From NCBI GenBank assembly GCA_021731625.1, contig JAKFXC010000006.1, forward strand, positions 1 through 41,384: DNA of 41,384 nt, written 5' to 3'. This stretch comes from Candidatus Omnitrophota bacterium (GTDB lineage: Bacteria; Omnitrophota; Gorgyraeia; Zapsychrales; Fredricksoniimonadaceae). A program made the position numbers and the translations under genes. The notes under the pieces were generated by a model. The model was not told where the DNA came from. It saw only the letters and a list, made by a program, of their open reading frames with translations, and made no database searches. Below are positions 13,327 through 29,669 of this stretch, piece after piece; position 1 is the stretch's first letter, and every line of letters starts with the position of its first letter.

Positions 13327-14299
13327 CTTCGACTCCGATCGCATGCATGCACCGGTTGAGTGGACAGCTTAAGTGGTAGCAAGGGGCCTTATTGCACCCG
13401 ATGTCCTTAAATAAAATAATGGCCGGCGACGTGCCCCGCGGCCCGGTGACCTCCGGCCTGGTGGGCCCATAGAGCCCGATGACTTTTGCGCCGACGCTAC
13501 TGGCCAGATGCAAAGGCCCGCTGTCGGCCGACACGACGGTCTTGGCCCGGGCAAACAAGGCCAGCAATTCGCCTAAACTGGTCTCCCCCGCCATATTGAC
13601 AGCCCGTACCGTCGGACTTTCCATGATGCGGAGCACATCGTTCTTGTCCCGTGCGGAACCTGAAAAAATAATTTTAAGAGCTGACCGCTCATGCACGCAT
13701 TGGGCCAGCCGGGCCCAAAAATCAAGAGGCCAGCGTTTTAAATCCCAATTCCCACCGATGTTAAATACCACAATCTCATCATTGGCCGCAATGCCCCGTT
13801 CCTGAAGTTTGGTCGCCAAACTTTGCTTACGTGTGGCCTCCACATTCAAACTGTACCGACGATCCGGGCAAGGAATGCCGAATGTTTCCAGTACTTGTAA
13901 ATACTCATCCATCCTATGACCCCCTTGGGACACCTGGGCGACCGGGTGGGTCAAGAAGCCCGGAACTTTGCTGTACCCGACACGCACTGGGATCCCGGCC
14001 AAAAAAACAAACCAGGCCCGGGTCATGGACCGGTGCAGCAAAAAAGCCGCGTCAAATCTGGCCCGGCGCAAACGCCAAATCAAGGCCAATTTTTTCCAGG
14101 GCCAACGGTCCTTGCCTTTTTCATCGTAAATAATGATGCCGTCGACATCCGGACAATGGCGCAGCACTTCCTGAAGGCGCGGCACGCACAAACAAGACAG
14201 CCGGGCCTGCGGGTACGCTTGTTTGAGGGCGGCAAATACCGGCGTTGCAAAAACCGCATCCCCCAACCAATTGACGTTAACGACCAGTATGTTGTTCAT
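13292..14299 (-). CDS. GT9 heptosyltransferase-type glycosyltransferase (WaaF-like)
   Basis: 335 residues, GT9 family. Signature NILVVNVNWLGDAVFATPVFAALKQAYP at the start (a WLGD variant typical of the heptosyltransferase II group), with ARFDAAFLLHRSMTRAWFVFLAG, VFNIGGNWDLKRWPLDFWARLA and VVSADSGPLHLASSVGAKVIGLYGPT. The C-terminus contains CNKAPCYHLSCPLNRCMHAI, a cysteine-rich end also seen in WaaF-like proteins. It probably transfers a heptose to the LPS inner core. It overlaps the GT4 gene before it by 23 bases and the next GT9 gene by 35. No clear Shine-Dalgarno precedes the ATG, consistent with coupling to the upstream gene. Confidence 0.9.
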   Translation of the reverse strand: MNNILVVNVNWLGDAVFATPVFAALKQAYPQARLSCLCVPRLQEVLRHCPDVDGIIIYDEKGKDRWPWKKLALIWRLRRARFDAAFLLHRSMTRAWFVFLAGIPVRVGYSKVPGFLTHPVAQVSQGGHRMDEYLQVLETFGIPCPDRRYSLNVEATRKQSLATKLQERGIAANDEIVVFNIGGNWDLKRWPLDFWARLAQCVHERSALKIIFSGSARDKNDVLRIMESPTVRAVNMAGETSLGELLALFARAKTVVSADSGPLHLASSVGAKVIGLYGPTRPEVTGPRGTSPAIILFKDIGCNKAPCYHLSCPLNRCMHAIGVEDVWQAVQKFIG

Positions 14300-15374
14300 A
14301 AAAATAAATTGTGGCGGACACCATTTTGTCTAAAGAAAACTTATCCTCCGCTTCCCGCCGGGCCGTCGAGGCCAAGACCCGGGCCTGTTTGGGGTTTTTG
14401 AGCAATTCGATGATTTTCCGGGCCAGGGCAGCGCTGTTATTGGCCGGCACCAACGCGCCGGTCACTCCGTCTTGGATCAAGTCCGGCAAGCCCCCAACGT
14501 TGGAGGCCACCACCGGGATCCCGGCGGCCTGCGCTTCCATGACCGAAATGCCCAATCCCTCCTGTAAGGAGGGCATCACAAAAAGGTCAAAAATCGGCAA
14601 AAGGTCCGACGTGCGGTTAACAATGGACTCAAAACGCACCGCCGTGCTTAAGCCCTGCTGCTCCACCAGCTGTTGCAATGGGACCTTTTCCGGGCCATCA
14701 CCGACGAGCCACACGCGGGTGCGGGGAAAATACCTTTGGATTTCGGGAACAGCGGCGATGAGGACATCCAATCCCTTGACGCTGGACAGCCGGGCGATGC
14801 ATCCCAGCACCGGAGTCCCATCCACATTCCATTGCTGGCGCTTGAGTTCTCTTTCCTTCTCGTCCGTTGGCTTAAACTGCTTAAGGTCAATGCCGTTAGG
14901 AATTAAAGCGACCCGGTGGGGCTCCACCTTAAAATCCTCGACCAGATGCCGGCGCACGCTTTTGCTGATGGCAATCACCCCCTGCCCCCAGCCCGGGAAC
15001 AGGCGGCGAAACGCCCGGGGCTTAAAAAATCCATGGCAGGTGCTGAGATTAGGCGTGCCGGTCAAGCGCGCCGCAGCGGCCGCCAACACTTGAGTGGTGC
15101 GGGTTTGGGCGTGCACGATGTCTATGTTTTTCTCTTTGATCAAACGCATCAAGCCAGGCAAAGCCAACCATAATTGCGGGTGGGCTTCCGACTTGACCTT
15201 GATGTTCATGTCGACATGTTCGGCCCCGGCGGAACGCAAGAATTCACGGCAGTTGCCGCCGGACGACACCACAAACACCTTGTGCCCTTTTTGGGTCAAT
15301 CCACGGGTGAGCCCCAGCACATAGCTGGTGATGCCTCCGGTGTTGCAATGATTCGCGAGTAACAAAATGTTCAT
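14277..15374 (-). CDS. GT4-family glycosyltransferase
   Basis: 365 residues in GT-B fold, family GT4. The N-terminal acceptor half begins MNILLLANHCNTGGITSYVLGL, with IVHAQTRTTQVLAAA and STCHGFFKPRAFRRLFPGWGQGVIAISKSV. The donor half has LGCIARLSSVKGLDVLI, VWLVGDGPEK, and PSLQEGLGISVMEAQAAGIPVVASNVGGLPDLI, whose E-x7-E pair is the GT4 nucleotide-sugar signature. It probably builds the LPS core or O-chain with the following GT9 genes. It is closely similar in plan to the GT4 half of the fused gene upstream. The space before its start is filled by a fold-back repeat ending 13 bases from the ATG, with only GGAA as a weak ribosome site. Confidence 0.9.
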   Translation of the reverse strand: MNILLLANHCNTGGITSYVLGLTRGLTQKGHKVFVVSSGGNCREFLRSAGAEHVDMNIKVKSEAHPQLWLALPGLMRLIKEKNIDIVHAQTRTTQVLAAAAARLTGTPNLSTCHGFFKPRAFRRLFPGWGQGVIAISKSVRRHLVEDFKVEPHRVALIPNGIDLKQFKPTDEKERELKRQQWNVDGTPVLGCIARLSSVKGLDVLIAAVPEIQRYFPRTRVWLVGDGPEKVPLQQLVEQQGLSTAVRFESIVNRTSDLLPIFDLFVMPSLQEGLGISVMEAQAAGIPVVASNVGGLPDLIQDGVTGALVPANNSAALARKIIELLKNPKQARVLASTARREAEDKFSLDKMVSATIYFYEQHTGR

Positions 15375-15386
15375 AGTGTGTTCCGT

Positions 15387-15543
15387 AAAGAGCTTTGGGA
15401 GGAATTATTGGCTCCGGGTGCTCTTTTTCCGCCAATCTTTTCTAAATTGTCGGAAATACAACGCCCCTTCGGGGCTGTATTTCCGAATCGGCGACGTAGA
15501 TTGGCGGGAGCACAGTCGCCCATAATTCCTCGCAAAGCTCTTT
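15387..15543. repeat. 157-bp imperfect palindromic (fold-back) element
   Basis: The outer 22 bases of the two ends are inverted copies with one mismatch (15387-15408 and 15522-15543; AAAGAGCTTTG at the left end). The arms continue with interrupted pairing (CCGCCAATCT near 15429 against AGATTGGCGG near 15498) to a strong apical hairpin. That hairpin has CGGAAATACA at 15451-15460 pairing with TGTATTTCCG at 15476-15485, capped by GCCCCTTCGGGGC at 15463-15475. There is no coding frame and no U-tract, so it is not an ordinary terminator; it looks like a MITE or other mobile fold-back sequence. It ends 12 bases before the start codon of the GT4 gene and, with the next element, fills the 362-bp gap 15375-15736. 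Confidence 0.8.
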
Positions 15544-15572
15544 TCACAACTTCCTAAGACCACGATTATAAT

Positions 15573-15741
15573 ATTGAGGAACAGTTATTATGCTTGGCAC
15601 AATAGGGAACTTTTTGCCAATGTTGGCGAAGATTTACAGTGAGAATGTTTCATATAAAAAATTTTCTATAAAACATTCGAACTGTAAACTGAAGCCAACG
15701 GCAAAAATGTTCCGTGCCAAGCATAATAACTGTTCCTCAAT
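15573..15741. repeat. 169-bp palindromic element with 28-bp perfect terminal inverted repeats
   Basis: Positions 15573-15600 and 15714-15741 are perfect inverted copies (outer bases ATTGAGGAAC). Inside, pairing continues with small bulges (GGAAC, TTTTTGCC, GTTGGC, TTTACAGT and GAATGTTT against their complements) to an AT-rich centre near 15655-15665. No gene or U-tract is present. The right end covers the TGA stop of the GT4-GT9 gene (15737-15739), so the element has either supplied or lies against that gene's end. No clear target-site duplication is visible. It is unrelated in sequence to the neighbouring 157-bp element, although of similar size and plan. Confidence 0.85.
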
Positions 15742-17824
15742 TCATAAGCTCCTGGACTTTTTTAAAAACTTCCTCGGGTAAAATTTCTTGCATGCAGGCG
15801 TGAGTCTTGATCCGGCAAACACCGCTGTAGCAGGGCGAACAGTTCATCACCTTGCGCAAGACAATGCTTTTATCCGTCGGAGGCATGTGCCGTATCGGGT
15901 CGGTGGGGCCAAAGAAAGCAATCACCGGCACCCGCATGGCCGCCGCCACATGCAAAGGCGCCGAATCAGCAGTGATGTAGGCCTTGCACCGGCCGATGAG
16001 CGCCGCCAACTGCAAAATATTCGTCTTGCCGGTAAAATCTGCCGGCTTGGCCTTGGCCCTCTGAATGATCTGGCGCGCCACCGGTTTGTCCTTGTGCTGC
16101 CCGGTCAGAAATACCCGGATATTTTTTTGACCCAGCAGATCGCAGAGTTTAGCCATATGCTCCAGCGGCCAGTTCTTGCTGTCCCAGCGCTCCGACGCTG
16201 CCACATTAATGCCCACCATGTCCTTGCTGAGGCCCAACCATTCTCCGTCAAGCAGGGCCTGGGCATATTCCTGCTCACGCTTGGAGGTCCACAACTCCAA
16301 ACGCAGGGTGTCCTCATACTCAATGCCAAGCTCATGCAGTATTTTAAATTGGTGAGCCACCGGCGATAAACCAGAGGCATTGTTCTTGACCCGGTGCGAT
16401 TGCAGAAAAGACCATTTGCCGTTGTCATACCCATACCGTTCCTTGGCCAGACTTAAAAAACCCAGCATGTGGCTCAAGCGGTTGTTCTGGAAATCAATCA
16501 CCTTATCAAAACGGAACCGGCGCAAATGCTGCCCGGCGTTCCAGAGGGACTTAAAATTTTTACACGTCGGGTCTACGATAATCACGCTGTTGATATACGG
16601 GCAACGTTGCAGCACCCCCGCCCCCTCCGGAGAGGTCAGGCAATGGATTTGGGCCTTGGGAAAATGGGCCCGCAAGGCCTTGAGCGACGAAGTGGCTAAA
16701 ATGACATCGCCGATCGCAGAGAGCTTGAGCACTAAAATGCTCGTCGATTGTAGAACTTCGGCGTACACGGCCAAGGTGGCGTCCGCCATGTGTTTGATGG
16801 TGTAGCGCTCGTCGATGCGCTGCTTGGACTGGGCAACGATTTTTTGAGCCAGGCCGTTTTCCTGCAAAAGCCGCACCACGGCCTTGGCCATGGCCGGCGG
16901 ATCTTTAGGCATGACCAACAAACCGGTCTTCCCGTCGTCAATAATTTCCACCACCCCGCCCACTTTGGTGGCCACCACCGGGACACCGGAGGCCTGGGCT
17001 TCCAAAATCACGCGGCCAAACGCTTCCTGAGTGACGGTGGAAAGCACCAGGCAGTCGGTCTCGGCCAGGATTTGCGGAATGTCCCGGCGGTTGCCTAAAA
17101 ACTCGACGTGGTTGGACAGCCCCAAGCGTTTGGCCAGCAACATCAATTCTTCCTTATACCCGTTGCGTTTGGGCGGGGCATCCCCCACGATTTTAATCCT
17201 CACCTGCGGGATTTGGCGCACCACCGCGGCCATGGCTTTTAAAAAATAAGCATGGCCCTTGAGCGGCGTCAGGCGGCCGATCATGGTGATCACTTTGGGG
17301 TCCTGGGGGCCTTTGGCCGAACGCGCAGTTTGAAAACGCGACAAGTCCACGCTGCGGGGAATAATGCGCACCATCTCCGCCGGGACTTTGAAATCCTGCA
17401 CCATGTGCCGGCCGATAACCTCTGAAATGGCAATGACGCGTTTGCCCCACCCCATGGCGCGGCTGAAAAAATGCGGGGCATAGTAGCCGTGGCAGGTGGT
17501 GACAAATACGGCCTTGGTGTTGCGGCAGGCAAAAAATGCCACCCAGGCCGGGACCCGGGAACGCGCATGCACAATGTCAATGTTCTCGCTGCGGATAATG
17601 GCCGCCAGAGCGCGCACCGCCGCCAGCATCAGAAAAATATTTTTTTTCCGCACCGGCAAGATGTAGTGCCGTGAACCTTGTTTGTGCAGTTCATCCACCA
17701 GGCTCCCTCCGCTAGAGACCACAATGGAAGTGTGCCCCTGGCTGACTAAATATTTGGCAAAGTCCACCGTTCCGGTTTCAACCCCGCCGACATTCAATTC
17801 AGGGAGAATTTGCAAAACATTCAT
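15737..17824 (-). CDS. fused GT4-GT9 glycosyltransferase
   Basis: 695 residues made of two complete glycosyltransferases in one frame. Residues 1 to about 358 are GT4: MNVLQILPELNVGGVETGTV, TTCHGYYAPHFFSRAMGWGKRVIAIS (two adjacent pieces), ITMIGRLTPLKGHAYFLKA and TVTQEAFGRVILEAQASGVPVVATKVGG (two pieces) with E267 and E275. Residues about 361-695 are GT9: SILVLKLSAIGDVILATSSL, VGINVAASERWDSKNWPLEHM, and YITADSAPLHVAAAMRVPVIAFFGPTDP (two pieces). Each half is full length, so one polypeptide may add two successive core sugars. The start overlaps the stop of the upstream LpxL-ELM1 gene as TGATG. The stop codon falls inside the right arm of the 169-bp palindrome, so the original C-terminus may have been altered slightly. 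Confidence 0.9.
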   Translation of the reverse strand: MNVLQILPELNVGGVETGTVDFAKYLVSQGHTSIVVSSGGSLVDELHKQGSRHYILPVRKKNIFLMLAAVRALAAIIRSENIDIVHARSRVPAWVAFFACRNTKAVFVTTCHGYYAPHFFSRAMGWGKRVIAISEVIGRHMVQDFKVPAEMVRIIPRSVDLSRFQTARSAKGPQDPKVITMIGRLTPLKGHAYFLKAMAAVVRQIPQVRIKIVGDAPPKRNGYKEELMLLAKRLGLSNHVEFLGNRRDIPQILAETDCLVLSTVTQEAFGRVILEAQASGVPVVATKVGGVVEIIDDGKTGLLVMPKDPPAMAKAVVRLLQENGLAQKIVAQSKQRIDERYTIKHMADATLAVYAEVLQSTSILVLKLSAIGDVILATSSLKALRAHFPKAQIHCLTSPEGAGVLQRCPYINSVIIVDPTCKNFKSLWNAGQHLRRFRFDKVIDFQNNRLSHMLGFLSLAKERYGYDNGKWSFLQSHRVKNNASGLSPVAHQFKILHELGIEYEDTLRLELWTSKREQEYAQALLDGEWLGLSKDMVGINVAASERWDSKNWPLEHMAKLCDLLGQKNIRVFLTGQHKDKPVARQIIQRAKAKPADFTGKTNILQLAALIGRCKAYITADSAPLHVAAAMRVPVIAFFGPTDPIRHMPPTDKSIVLRKVMNCSPCYSGVCRIKTHACMQEILPEEVFKKVQELMN

Positions 17825-19803
17825 CAGACGATTTCCTCAACGGCTTGACGGACGGTTGGCTGGTCCGCCAAAGATTTAAACGCAAACTTATTGGTCATCA
17901 TGTTATGGATGGTCATCGACAGATCTTTCACCGTGCAGGCCAACAAATACCCGCCGGCATTGAGACCCAGCACGAAACGGTCGTACTTACGGCCCGGACG
18001 CTGCTGATCAAAATGCCCCGACGGCCTAAACACGATGGTGCGTTTGCCGGAGGTCACCGCTTCCGAAACCATGGAAATGCTGTCCCCGGAGACAATCAAC
18101 AAATCGCTTAAGGCCAAAATCCCCCCCACCGCTTCCGGGACATTGTAGTCATTGGCGATGATGCACAGGACGCAGCGCTCAAAACTCCTCATCTCCTTGC
18201 TCACCACTGCATCCACCGCCGCCGGGGTCCGGCGCGACGTGGTGATTAAAATGTCGGCGTTAAAATGGCTAGCTGCCTCTTTGATTTGCCGCAGCAGCAG
18301 GCGGATTTGATTCTCATTATAGACCACCCCCCTGGTGTTGCCGCCAAGCAGGACCCCGATTTTCATGCGGACGCTGTTTTTTAAATGCGAATATCGGTTA
18401 AGCAGCAACGCGCTCTGATTTTTTAAGTACTCCGGGGTGACTAAATTAAGCGCCGCCTTGGTCAAGGCAAACTTGGTCTTAAAAACCGACGGGCGGTCAT
18501 GCTCCGGCGCAATGACTAAGTCGAAATATTTCCAGGCGATGGGACCAGGTTTGAGCAAACAAATGGCTTTGGTGTTGTAACAGCGTTTAATAAAAAAATT
18601 CACACTCCCGACCATGGAGCCGCAGGCAATCACAAAGTCCGGACGGACCTTGATTAACTCCTGATAAGAAGTTGGTGTCAAGAAAAAGGCCAGCAGCTCC
18701 TCCCGGCATAAGAACCCAAAAGCTTGGGACAGGAACGCCAGCACGGAAAACCATTTCTGCTTGGAGCTGGATTGAAATGCAACCCTGATGGTCTGTTCCA
18801 CAACGCGTTTCCCCCGCTGGTTCAAAACGGATCTCAGCAGCTGCGCGGTGGCCTGCGATTGGCGCAAATGCCCGGCCTTGCCGTCATCCAAGATCACCAC
18901 GTGGCTCTCGTCGGAATATTTGAATACCCTATAAAACCACATGTATTCATCGGGATACTCTTGGATCTTTTGTCCGAATATGGTGGCTGCCCGGTCCATG
19001 GCCTCGAGATTGTCCTTGGCGGTGTCCTTGTAGGCGGATAAATCCAAAGGCTCAAAATACGTCAGGACTTGCTTCGCCACCCCGACGCGCTTCATCCACA
19101 CCGGACAAACCGGTACGCCGTATTTTATCCCTAAGCGAATGGCCCCCGATGAGAGCGAAGCGGTTTTCCCCATGAACTTCACCACCACCCCATCGCTGCC
19201 GCCTTGGTCCAGGACCAAAGTCACAATTTCATTGTTACGCAAAGCCCGGATGATGTTTCGGATGGTTAACCCGTTGGTGGGGATGACTTTCCCGCCGGAC
19301 ACCGCCCTATACTTGTTGAGAAGCGCATCGATGCGGGGCGTTTTAGAATGCTGATTGGCCACCATATTGTAAGCATGGCCGATGGAACTGCTGAGGGCGC
19401 TGGCCAGTTCCCAATTGCCGGTGTGCACGGCGAGCAAAATGAGCCCCTTGCCTTTGCTCAGGGCCCGGAGGGCGATTTCTCGATTCTCCAAGCCGACAAA
19501 ATGCTCAAACCCCAAACGTTGCATTTTGGGCAGGCATAAAATTTCCACAAAACTTTGGCAATAATTGACAAAGACCTTTTTGGTAATGGCGCGGATCTCT
19601 ACGGGCGATTTGCAAGGCGCAAACACCGTCTTTAAGTTGCCGTACACCACCCGGCGTTTTTTCACCGACACATAATAGCCCACCGTTCCCACGCCCCTGG
19701 CAATCCACAAGGACACCCTAAAAGGTAAGGCCCTAAAAATCACGGCGGCGATTTTAATGACGGACAGCAGCCATGATTCTTTCAAGGAAGACATTTTTGC
19801 CAT
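17824..19803 (-). CDS. fused lipid A acyltransferase-like and ELM1-like protein
   Basis: About 659 residues. Residues 1 to about 295 are an LpxL/HtrB-type acyltransferase: an N-terminal hydrophobic segment (WLLSVIKIAAVIFRALPF), LILLAVHTGNWELAS with the H-x4-E catalytic pair (H127 and E132), LVLDQGGSDGVVVKFMG and PVCPVWMKRV. It should add a secondary acyl chain to Kdo2-lipid A at the inner membrane. Residues about 300-659 resemble the ELM1/DUF1022 family, a GT-B-like fold of uncertain function in bacteria: VVILDDGKAGHLRQSQATA, PDFVIACGSMVG, KIGVLLGGNTRG, DILITTSRRTP and LLIVSGDSISMVSEAVTSGK. The frame is open 116 codons upstream, but that part is a shadow of lpxK; the ATG at 19803 (or 19794) begins real homology. 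It overlaps lpxK by 50 bases. Confidence 0.85.
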   Translation of the reverse strand: MAKMSSLKESWLLSVIKIAAVIFRALPFRVSLWIARGVGTVGYYVSVKKRRVVYGNLKTVFAPCKSPVEIRAITKKVFVNYCQSFVEILCLPKMQRLGFEHFVGLENREIALRALSKGKGLILLAVHTGNWELASALSSSIGHAYNMVANQHSKTPRIDALLNKYRAVSGGKVIPTNGLTIRNIIRALRNNEIVTLVLDQGGSDGVVVKFMGKTASLSSGAIRLGIKYGVPVCPVWMKRVGVAKQVLTYFEPLDLSAYKDTAKDNLEAMDRAATIFGQKIQEYPDEYMWFYRVFKYSDESHVVILDDGKAGHLRQSQATAQLLRSVLNQRGKRVVEQTIRVAFQSSSKQKWFSVLAFLSQAFGFLCREELLAFFLTPTSYQELIKVRPDFVIACGSMVGSVNFFIKRCYNTKAICLLKPGPIAWKYFDLVIAPEHDRPSVFKTKFALTKAALNLVTPEYLKNQSALLLNRYSHLKNSVRMKIGVLLGGNTRGVVYNENQIRLLLRQIKEAASHFNADILITTSRRTPAAVDAVVSKEMRSFERCVLCIIANDYNVPEAVGGILALSDLLIVSGDSISMVSEAVTSGKRTIVFRPSGHFDQQRPGRKYDRFVLGLNAGGYLLACTVKDLSMTIHNMMTNKFAFKSLADQPTVRQAVEEIV

Positions 19804-20830
19804 ATGTGATTTCCGATTCCACCTGCAAATAATGCACTCGATATCCCTGCCAAGATTCCTTAAAAGGCAGTATTTTAACCGCGTCCTTATGGGTCGTGAC
19901 CACATTTTGGACATTATGCTCCCGGGCCCATGTGCGGACCATGGCCATGTCCTCCTCGGTGTACATGTGGTGGTCCATAAAGACAAAAATATTGGCAGCT
20001 TGAAGTCCCGCCTGCTGCAAACTTTCGCGGAACGAGGTGGGGTCGGCAATGCCGCAGAAACCAACCACCGTAATCCCCTGCAGATGTTCCAAGCCCTGCC
20101 GCGTTTTCTCAAACACATCGACGCAGGTGGTGGGGACATAATGCGACTCAACCATCAGAGCGCCAGGGTTAATGTGGGCCAGGCGCTCCCGCAGCGCTGG
20201 AGCATCGCTGTGCGGGTGGTCGGTTTTCGTCAGGATAAACATCCCGGCGGCGCGCAGGGCGCCGATCGGTTCCCGCAACAGGCCCCGCGGCACCACGTGC
20301 CCGTTGCCAAACGGATTGGCCGTATCCACGGCGACAATGTCCAGGTCCCGGCGCAGCGGCCAATGTTGAAACCCGTCGTCGCACACAAACACGTCCACGG
20401 CATGGTGCTTGAGACACGCCTCAATGTTTTTGCGCCGGTTGGGGCCGGTCAGCACCAGGACCTCCGGCAGACTTTCTTTGAGCATGTGTGCTTCATCGCT
20501 AAACGCGGATTGCGTGGAAGGCATGTAGCCTCGGATGAGGATGGCTGTGCGGACCTGCCGGGAGACCAGGGCCCGGGCAATGGCAATGACCAAGGGAGTT
20601 TTACCAGCCCCGCCCACAGTAATGCTTCCGACGCTAAGGACCGGCCGAGGCGCCTGAAAGGACGGCAGGATGCCTTTGGAGTATAAAAATCGCAGCCCAC
20701 CCACCAACAGACCGTAGAGCAAAGAACAGATCCAAAGGGCCCATTTCACCGCGGCATCCACAGGCCCCTGCCGACGGTCTGTCATTAAAGCATAGAAATA
20801 ATTTCTTATACGCATACGGGCTACAGGCAT
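19754..20830 (-). CDS. lpxK: tetraacyldisaccharide 4'-kinase
   Basis: This 358-residue membrane-associated kinase phosphorylates the 4' position of the lipid A disaccharide to give lipid IVA. An N-terminal hydrophobic helix (AVKWALWICSLLYGLLVGGL) anchors it. The P-loop is VLSVGSITVGGAGKTPLVIAIA, followed by AILIRGYM and the catalytic-site segment VFVCDDGFQHWPLRRDLDIV. Further family segments are NPFGNGHVVPRGLLREP and the C-terminal HHMYTEEDM and VVTTHKDAVKI. Length is slightly above average. The ATG at 20830 lies within the end of waaA (10-base overlap); an ATG five codons later is possible. The order waaA-lpxK-lpxL fits stepwise lipid A assembly. Confidence 0.95.
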   Translation of the reverse strand: MPVARMRIRNYFYALMTDRRQGPVDAAVKWALWICSLLYGLLVGGLRFLYSKGILPSFQAPRPVLSVGSITVGGAGKTPLVIAIARALVSRQVRTAILIRGYMPSTQSAFSDEAHMLKESLPEVLVLTGPNRRKNIEACLKHHAVDVFVCDDGFQHWPLRRDLDIVAVDTANPFGNGHVVPRGLLREPIGALRAAGMFILTKTDHPHSDAPALRERLAHINPGALMVESHYVPTTCVDVFEKTRQGLEHLQGITVVGFCGIADPTSFRESLQQAGLQAANIFVFMDHHMYTEEDMAMVRTWAREHNVQNVVTTHKDAVKILPFKESWQGYRVHYLQVESEITYGKNVFLERIMAAVRH

Positions 20831-29575: not shown

Positions 29576-29669
29576 TGGAAATAGGGGCCTGGAAATAGGG
29601 GCCAGCCCCCTATTTTTACTTTTTTAAAAAAATAGGGGGCTGGCCCCTATTTCCAGGCCCCTATTTCCA
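29576..29669. repeat. 94-bp perfect palindrome with nested repeats
   Basis: Two 42-base arms (29576-29617 and 29628-29669) are perfect inverted copies around a 10-base loop. Each arm repeats GGAAATAGGGGCC twice in part and contains AATAGGGG and CCCCCTATT, which can also pair with each other, so nested hairpins are possible. The right arm covers the last nine bases of leuA, including its TAG stop. AAATAGGGG/CCCCTATTT palindromes of this kind occur as dispersed REP-like repeats in some uncultivated bacteria (recollection, not tested). On RNA it would form a very stable stem between leuA and aroE and, with an internal T-run, could attenuate transcription in either direction. Confidence 0.9.

Follow-up and report, generated by a model that had tools for sequence, protein, structure and literature searches.

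A 157-bp sequence directly upstream of a glycosyltransferase gene of an Omnitrophota bacterium folds back on itself over almost its whole length, which raises the question of whether it is a regulator of the genes that follow or a mobile element inserted between them. It lies in the window, by which the whole analysed stretch of 41,384 nucleotides is meant; the features are collected in Table 1. Folded end to end as RNA, the sequence reaches -87.7 kcal/mol, compared with a mean of -44.3 (sd 4.3) for 200 dinucleotide shuffles, none of which folded as well. In addition to the bulge in its 5' arm it contains an 11 x 11 internal loop, and counterparts of both recur in the folds of other copies. 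It stands twelve bases (15375-15386) away from the start codon (15374) of the minus-strand GT4 gene, and four glycosyltransferase ORFs follow, which according to Pfam are one GT4 and then three GT9 enzymes. Apart from the TTT that belongs to the stem and one further T, no T-run follows the outer stem on the plus strand of the window. The initial annotation had thus described the long hairpin with its stable tip, the lacking U-tract, the 12-base distance and the four downstream genes correctly. Two ORFs each carry two enzyme domains in a single frame, namely GT4 and GT9 domains at 15737-17824 and lipid A acyltransferase and ELM1-like domains at 17824-20151.

Table 1. Position of the fold-back elements and adjoining ORFs in the window
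Feature	Position	Strand	Basis
Family A fold-back element, 157 bp	15387..15543	.	fold z -10.2; 10 places in own genome
A 5' outer arm; sequence copy-specific outside CTTTGG	15387..15408	+	fold; within-copy pairing test
A 3' outer arm, complement of 5' arm	15522..15543	+	fold; within-copy pairing test
A conserved core	15404..15521	+	covariance model R1 match, 128 bits
A 5' arm, 5-base bulge TTTTT	15424..15428	+	folds and alignment; same or similar in many copies
A tip GCCCC-TTC-GGGGC	15463..15475	+	fold; tip pairs covary among copies
GT4 glycosyltransferase ORF downstream of A	14277..15374	-	Pfam PF00534 and PF13439
Upstream ORF, GT4 and GT9 domains, end inside B arm	15737..17824	-	ORF list and Pfam
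Family B fold-back element adjoining A	15573..15741	.	perfect 28-bp arms; own-genome repeats
Third palindrome, family C, REP-like, unrelated to A and B	29576..29669	.	42-bp perfect arms

The sequence, here termed family A, is a dispersed repeat. A DNA search of its own genome (G000; 2.28 Mb in 101 contigs) returned further places that match parts of the element at 77-88% identity, so that the search for further copies proposed in the initial annotation was answered with 10 places, and the neighbouring family B proved likewise repeated. A covariance model (A1, R1) was built from 27 of 37 cores. With R1, family A was found at 53 places, spread over 8 of 13 genomes chosen from one Omnitrophota family: 19 in G028, 10 in G000, 8 in G025, 6 each in G009 and G018, 2 in G004 and one each in G020 and G013. 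In this count a reverse-strand repeat of one place is counted once, and a weak match on G000 C93, a partial DNA match in G031 and two remnants in G028 are excluded. A stricter covariance search of the phylum placed the element in 6 of 384 genomes, its own included, all of this one family; a DNA search gave matches in 8 of 55 genomes, and a pattern for the core matched 22 stretches, all in Omnitrophota MAGs. The core pattern had no match among viral contigs, the element none among plasmid and phage records at E 0.001, and sequences from 11 sources none in Rfam at the gathering score. Plant-type microRNA models, matching family B, headed a relaxed Rfam scan; they scored far below their cut-offs and were rejected as artefacts of long hairpins. 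Among the proteins flanking family A that were inspected by eye, no common theme was seen. At G028 C77 (L181), two A-type arms stand together nearly without a core as a 57-base hairpin.

Comparison of relatives, also proposed at the outset, shows the sites without the element. At 68 loci of relatives chosen by their neighbouring genes, R1 found family A only at the pstB-phoU junctions of G028 and G025; it found none at 24 GT4, 29 pgk, 6 GT2, 3 transketolase and 4 other pstB loci, and the model R2 found no family B at the 24 GT4 loci. R1 was run on all loci, and the junctions themselves were displayed for 19 of the 24 GT4 and 17 of the 29 pgk relatives. In 18 of the 19 displayed GT4 loci the upstream ORF ends between -4 and +91 bases from the GT4 start, which it overlaps in 14 of the 19, while the distance in the window is 362; at the G004 locus, at least, a contig end leaves only 84 bases of upstream DNA. 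Similarly, the pgk stop and the tpiA motif lie 203 bases apart in G000, and 13-119 apart in 17 relatives. Judged from these loci, the site of family A in the window is an insertion. At pstB-phoU (L253-L258) the element has opposite orientations in G028 and G025, which is compatible with two insertions or with an inverted spacer; at the same junction a third species carries a short GGGGACTGTCCCC hairpin and three have no insert of any kind.

Two positions are common to pairs of species. For G004C11/G020C51, 168 of 197 aligned bases are identical, ends included, with flank pieces at 74-83%; for G009C27/G018C61 the element is identical at 175 of 183 bases and the left flank at 86-88%, and the right flank (L183, L184) is identical over 77 bases, up to the G018 contig end. 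The identical right flank suggests a possible recent transfer, and the closer likeness of the element than of the left flank could reflect either a function in place or such a transfer. The left gene at this position is presumably leuS, and the next gene in G009 was taken by eye to encode an AIPR-type protein.

Possible traces of insertion were also seen at the element's borders. Around 19 copies (18 of G028 and one of G018) the direct repeats had a mean of 5.39, compared with 4.31 (sd 0.21) when flanks were deranged, and none of 300 derangements was as high; the inverted-match control on the same copies was flat (4.47 vs 4.41). Exact direct repeats of 6-8 bp border 6 of the 19, for instance TTCTTAA, TATCTTA, TTAAATA and TTAACTTA. 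Seven copies of G000 gave 4.29 vs 3.55 (0 of 500 derangements), a value partly confounded by palindromic flanks, and seven copies of G025 gave no signal, 467 of 500 derangements being as high. The flank windows and anchors of this test and of the arm-pairing test below were chosen after the sequences had been inspected. The arms could be aligned in 51 copies and are paired as terminal inverted repeats in most full-length copies. The end sequence is common to copies within G028; it is copy-specific outside CTTTGG in G000 and G025. The transposon end AAAGAGCTTTG proposed in the initial annotation accordingly is not shared, since other copies differ outside CTTTGG, and a search of 7 genomes with the end pattern, five of them 51-70% complete, returned copies and remnants and no transposase or autonomous partner with A-like ends. 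Between co-directional ORFs, which were called mechanically, the orientation of the element is 12 to 0 in G028 and 13 to 14 over the other genomes; a general orientation rule was therefore discarded, as it holds in G028 only.

The best reading of family A is that of a MITE-like element, as had been suggested when the hairpin was first noted: dispersed copies of a short, non-coding sequence, element-free sites in relatives at the pgk, GT4, GT2, transketolase and pstB junctions, and above-chance direct repeats in G028 are all observed. A single-copy sequence conserved in place in distant relatives, which had been named as the outcome favouring a regulatory RNA, is not what was found. Short and non-coding, and with a conserved core inside long paired arms, family A is probably a non-autonomous mobile element of one Omnitrophota family, which a transposase supplied in trans would have moved.

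In layout, family A closely resembles QMITE2 of Coxiella burnetii, which in the excerpted descriptions has 150-190 bp, terminal inverted repeats and a long hairpin, is bordered by variable direct repeats of 7-11 nt and occurs in intergenic regions and at the 3' ends of genes (PMC5896051; PMC10969869). In contrast to family A, QMITE2 carries a GTAG REP that IS1111 uses (PMC5896051; PMC10969869). The likeness is one of description. Bacterial MITEs in general typically insert in AT-rich intergenic DNA and have inverted ends and stable RNA folds, as summarised in part of PMC10969869, whereas the ends of family A outside the core differ among copies in G000 and G025. The REP sequences of REP-associated transposases, again from excerpts, are likewise palindromic, dispersed and non-coding, but measure 20-40 bp, compared with about 157-190 bp for families A and B (PMC3733652; PMC8266576).

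What sets family A apart is the coupling of its arms. In 26 copies outside G028, within-copy pairing of the bases outside CTTTGG scored 5.71, compared with 1.23 (sd 0.20) for deranged arms (0 of 500), and 7 of the 26 paired poorly (score <=3). This test took 26 of the 53 copies, the remainder being the 19 of G028 and G018C46, which have common ends, and 7 that are truncated, one-armed or at a contig edge. Within G028, 18 of the 19 copies were compared (C208 has no left flank; another G028 comparison used 15), and over 29 outer pairs, a range set after the sequences had been inspected, 39 both-sided Watson-Crick changes were counted, against 5.6 (sd 1.9) for deranged arms. Single changes in these pairs were 12 A.C, 7 G.T and 10 transversions, and all 29 pairs were Watson-Crick in only 6 of the 18 copies; over all 37 outer pairs the counts were 39 both-sided changes, 20 G.T, 15 A.C and 42 transversions. 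The cores covary as well: the 27-core alignment of family A had 116 both-sided cells vs 36.8 in shuffles and 16 one-sided standard cells, and 9 cores of family B had 44 vs 11.6 and 2 one-sided cells (G.U). Further standard pair types did not exceed the shuffles (189 of 500 for A, 214 of 500 for B). In G028, change was rarest in the inner stems (38 of 1368 cells), with 58 of 558 in loops and 173 of 1332 in the outer stem. The outer arms of one copy thus seem to change together.

Either template switching from arm to arm or transposition dependent on pairing could explain this coupling. Template switching can homogenise the arms of hairpins and invert their spacers, as reported in parts of PMC8794818 and PMC8604942. 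The hairpins described there resemble family A in their multi-base compensated changes, homogenised arms and inverted spacers, and differ in that the case was made for rRNA, microRNA and coding repeats of yeast, and not for a mobile family's ends (excerpts of PMC8794818; PMC8604942). Most likely, template switching at replication would rewrite one arm of family A after the other arm; a close alternative would be that transposition selects for hairpins that pair. Simple arm copying would erase the conserved bulges, so selection must act too; the core would be held by the needs of transposition. Copy-specific arm pairing is not among the features given for QMITE2 in the excerpted text of PMC5896051.

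In the window, families A and B together separate two glycosyltransferase ORFs, which in most of the displayed relatives adjoin or overlap each other. The likely effect on the host would be a side effect, consisting of the loss of translational coupling and the presence of a double-stranded site in the mRNA. Taken as a whole, a MITE-like element with template-switched arms, uncoupling the genes as a side effect, is probably the right explanation.

The strongest competitor, possible and still rather unlikely, is a mobile element selected for its shape, the enzyme of which would read the stem and bulges of a single-stranded DNA hairpin; pairing would be needed, sequence would be free, no arm copying would take place, and lineages without pairing would stop moving. 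It would account for the conserved core and the covarying stems of both families, for the layout that the two have in common, in which the outer stem is long and variable and the 5' arm has a 5-base bulge, and for the 12 to 0 orientation between co-directional ORFs in G028. However, IS200/IS605-type transposition of a single strand is not expected to generate direct repeats, so that those of G028 come unexpected, the orientation is unbiased in other genomes (13 vs 14), and a single copy in which numerous compensated sites are found nowhere else would have to have moved many times. A combined form, in which families A and B are a class defined by shape, with fixed core bulges, outer stems renewed by arm copying and an end sequence that the enzyme does not read, is regarded as doubtful; there the arm would be copied via the folded strand, at replication or in each round of movement.

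A role of the hairpins in the host's mRNA, in processing, stability or operon polarity and with pairing selected at each site, is less likely still. The strong folding, the placement between genes of one direction, for instance at pgk-tpiA, the two positions common to species (G004C11/G020C51 and G009C27/G018C61) and the sense orientation in G028 would fit it. A cis-regulatory RNA would be retained at the same gene, but family A occurs in 0 of the relatives' 24 GT4 loci and is absent from relatives at loci tested, and it corresponds to no described RNA family (gathering score, 11 sources) and carries no T-run. Selection on a sense-strand RNA is expected to leave many G.U intermediates. Mismatches over 46 of the 51 aligned copies were 14 G.T, 28 A.C and 42 others, A.C being the commoner; without a clear excess of G.T over A.C, it is doubtful that an mRNA hairpin is under selection. 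The proposal of the initial annotation that folding might switch translation of the four glycosyltransferase genes consequently finds no support in the empty GT4 loci or in the stem, where a clear G.U excess is missing.

Very improbable is the insertion of family A into existing palindromes, by which the outer arms would be target DNA. That the arms are copy-specific, and that G000 C16 and C71 (L007, L002) have their copies between the arms of another palindrome, of the AGTAGGGACAGCGCCCT type, would speak for it. Yet by eye no palindrome was seen at the element-free GT2 (6) and transketolase (3) junctions of relatives, hence the outer arms arrived with the element or arose later. Insertion into terminators or other palindromes was rejected in view of the absent T-runs and the element-free sites. 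An intrinsic terminator or attenuator is scarcely credible, as the terminator pattern, which matches on both strands, does so at the GC-rich internal tip only, no T-run follows the outer stem and many copies lie between co-directional genes.

Compensated changes are commonly read as the mark of a functional RNA. Family A combines strong compensation with no clear wobble excess, and compensation alone could therefore mislead RNA discovery in such genomes. Its copies would also provide a natural setting in which to study how templates are switched at hairpins, and families A and B could be a lead to a mobilising enzyme of Omnitrophota that is as yet undescribed. Among the matches listed from the open-access literature, no description was recognised of Omnitrophota repeats like A or B, nor of any bacterial MITE whose arms covary. 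By description only, bcr1 of the Bacillus cereus group, a repeat of about 155 bp with a proposed RNA fold, may be set beside family A.

Family B, 29 bases from A in the window, is a separate family of similar layout. Its arms lie at 15573-15600 and 15714-15741, its fold has a z of -17.3 (15560-15745), and R2 matched it with 148 bits at 15592-15722; among the loci examined, R2 found it also in G028 (L152, L109) and G021 (L243). At three places of G000, namely the window, C7 and C59, it stands at most about 100 bases from family A, and at C59 (L167) the two look fused by eye, as though the intervening sequence had been deleted. Between A and B in the window (15543-15572), the plus strand carries a promoter-like TTCACA-18-TATAAT sequence directed away from the GT4 gene. 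Family C had 87 matches in the genome, many of them partial and with both strands counted, and a 14-base unit is doubled in each of its arms.
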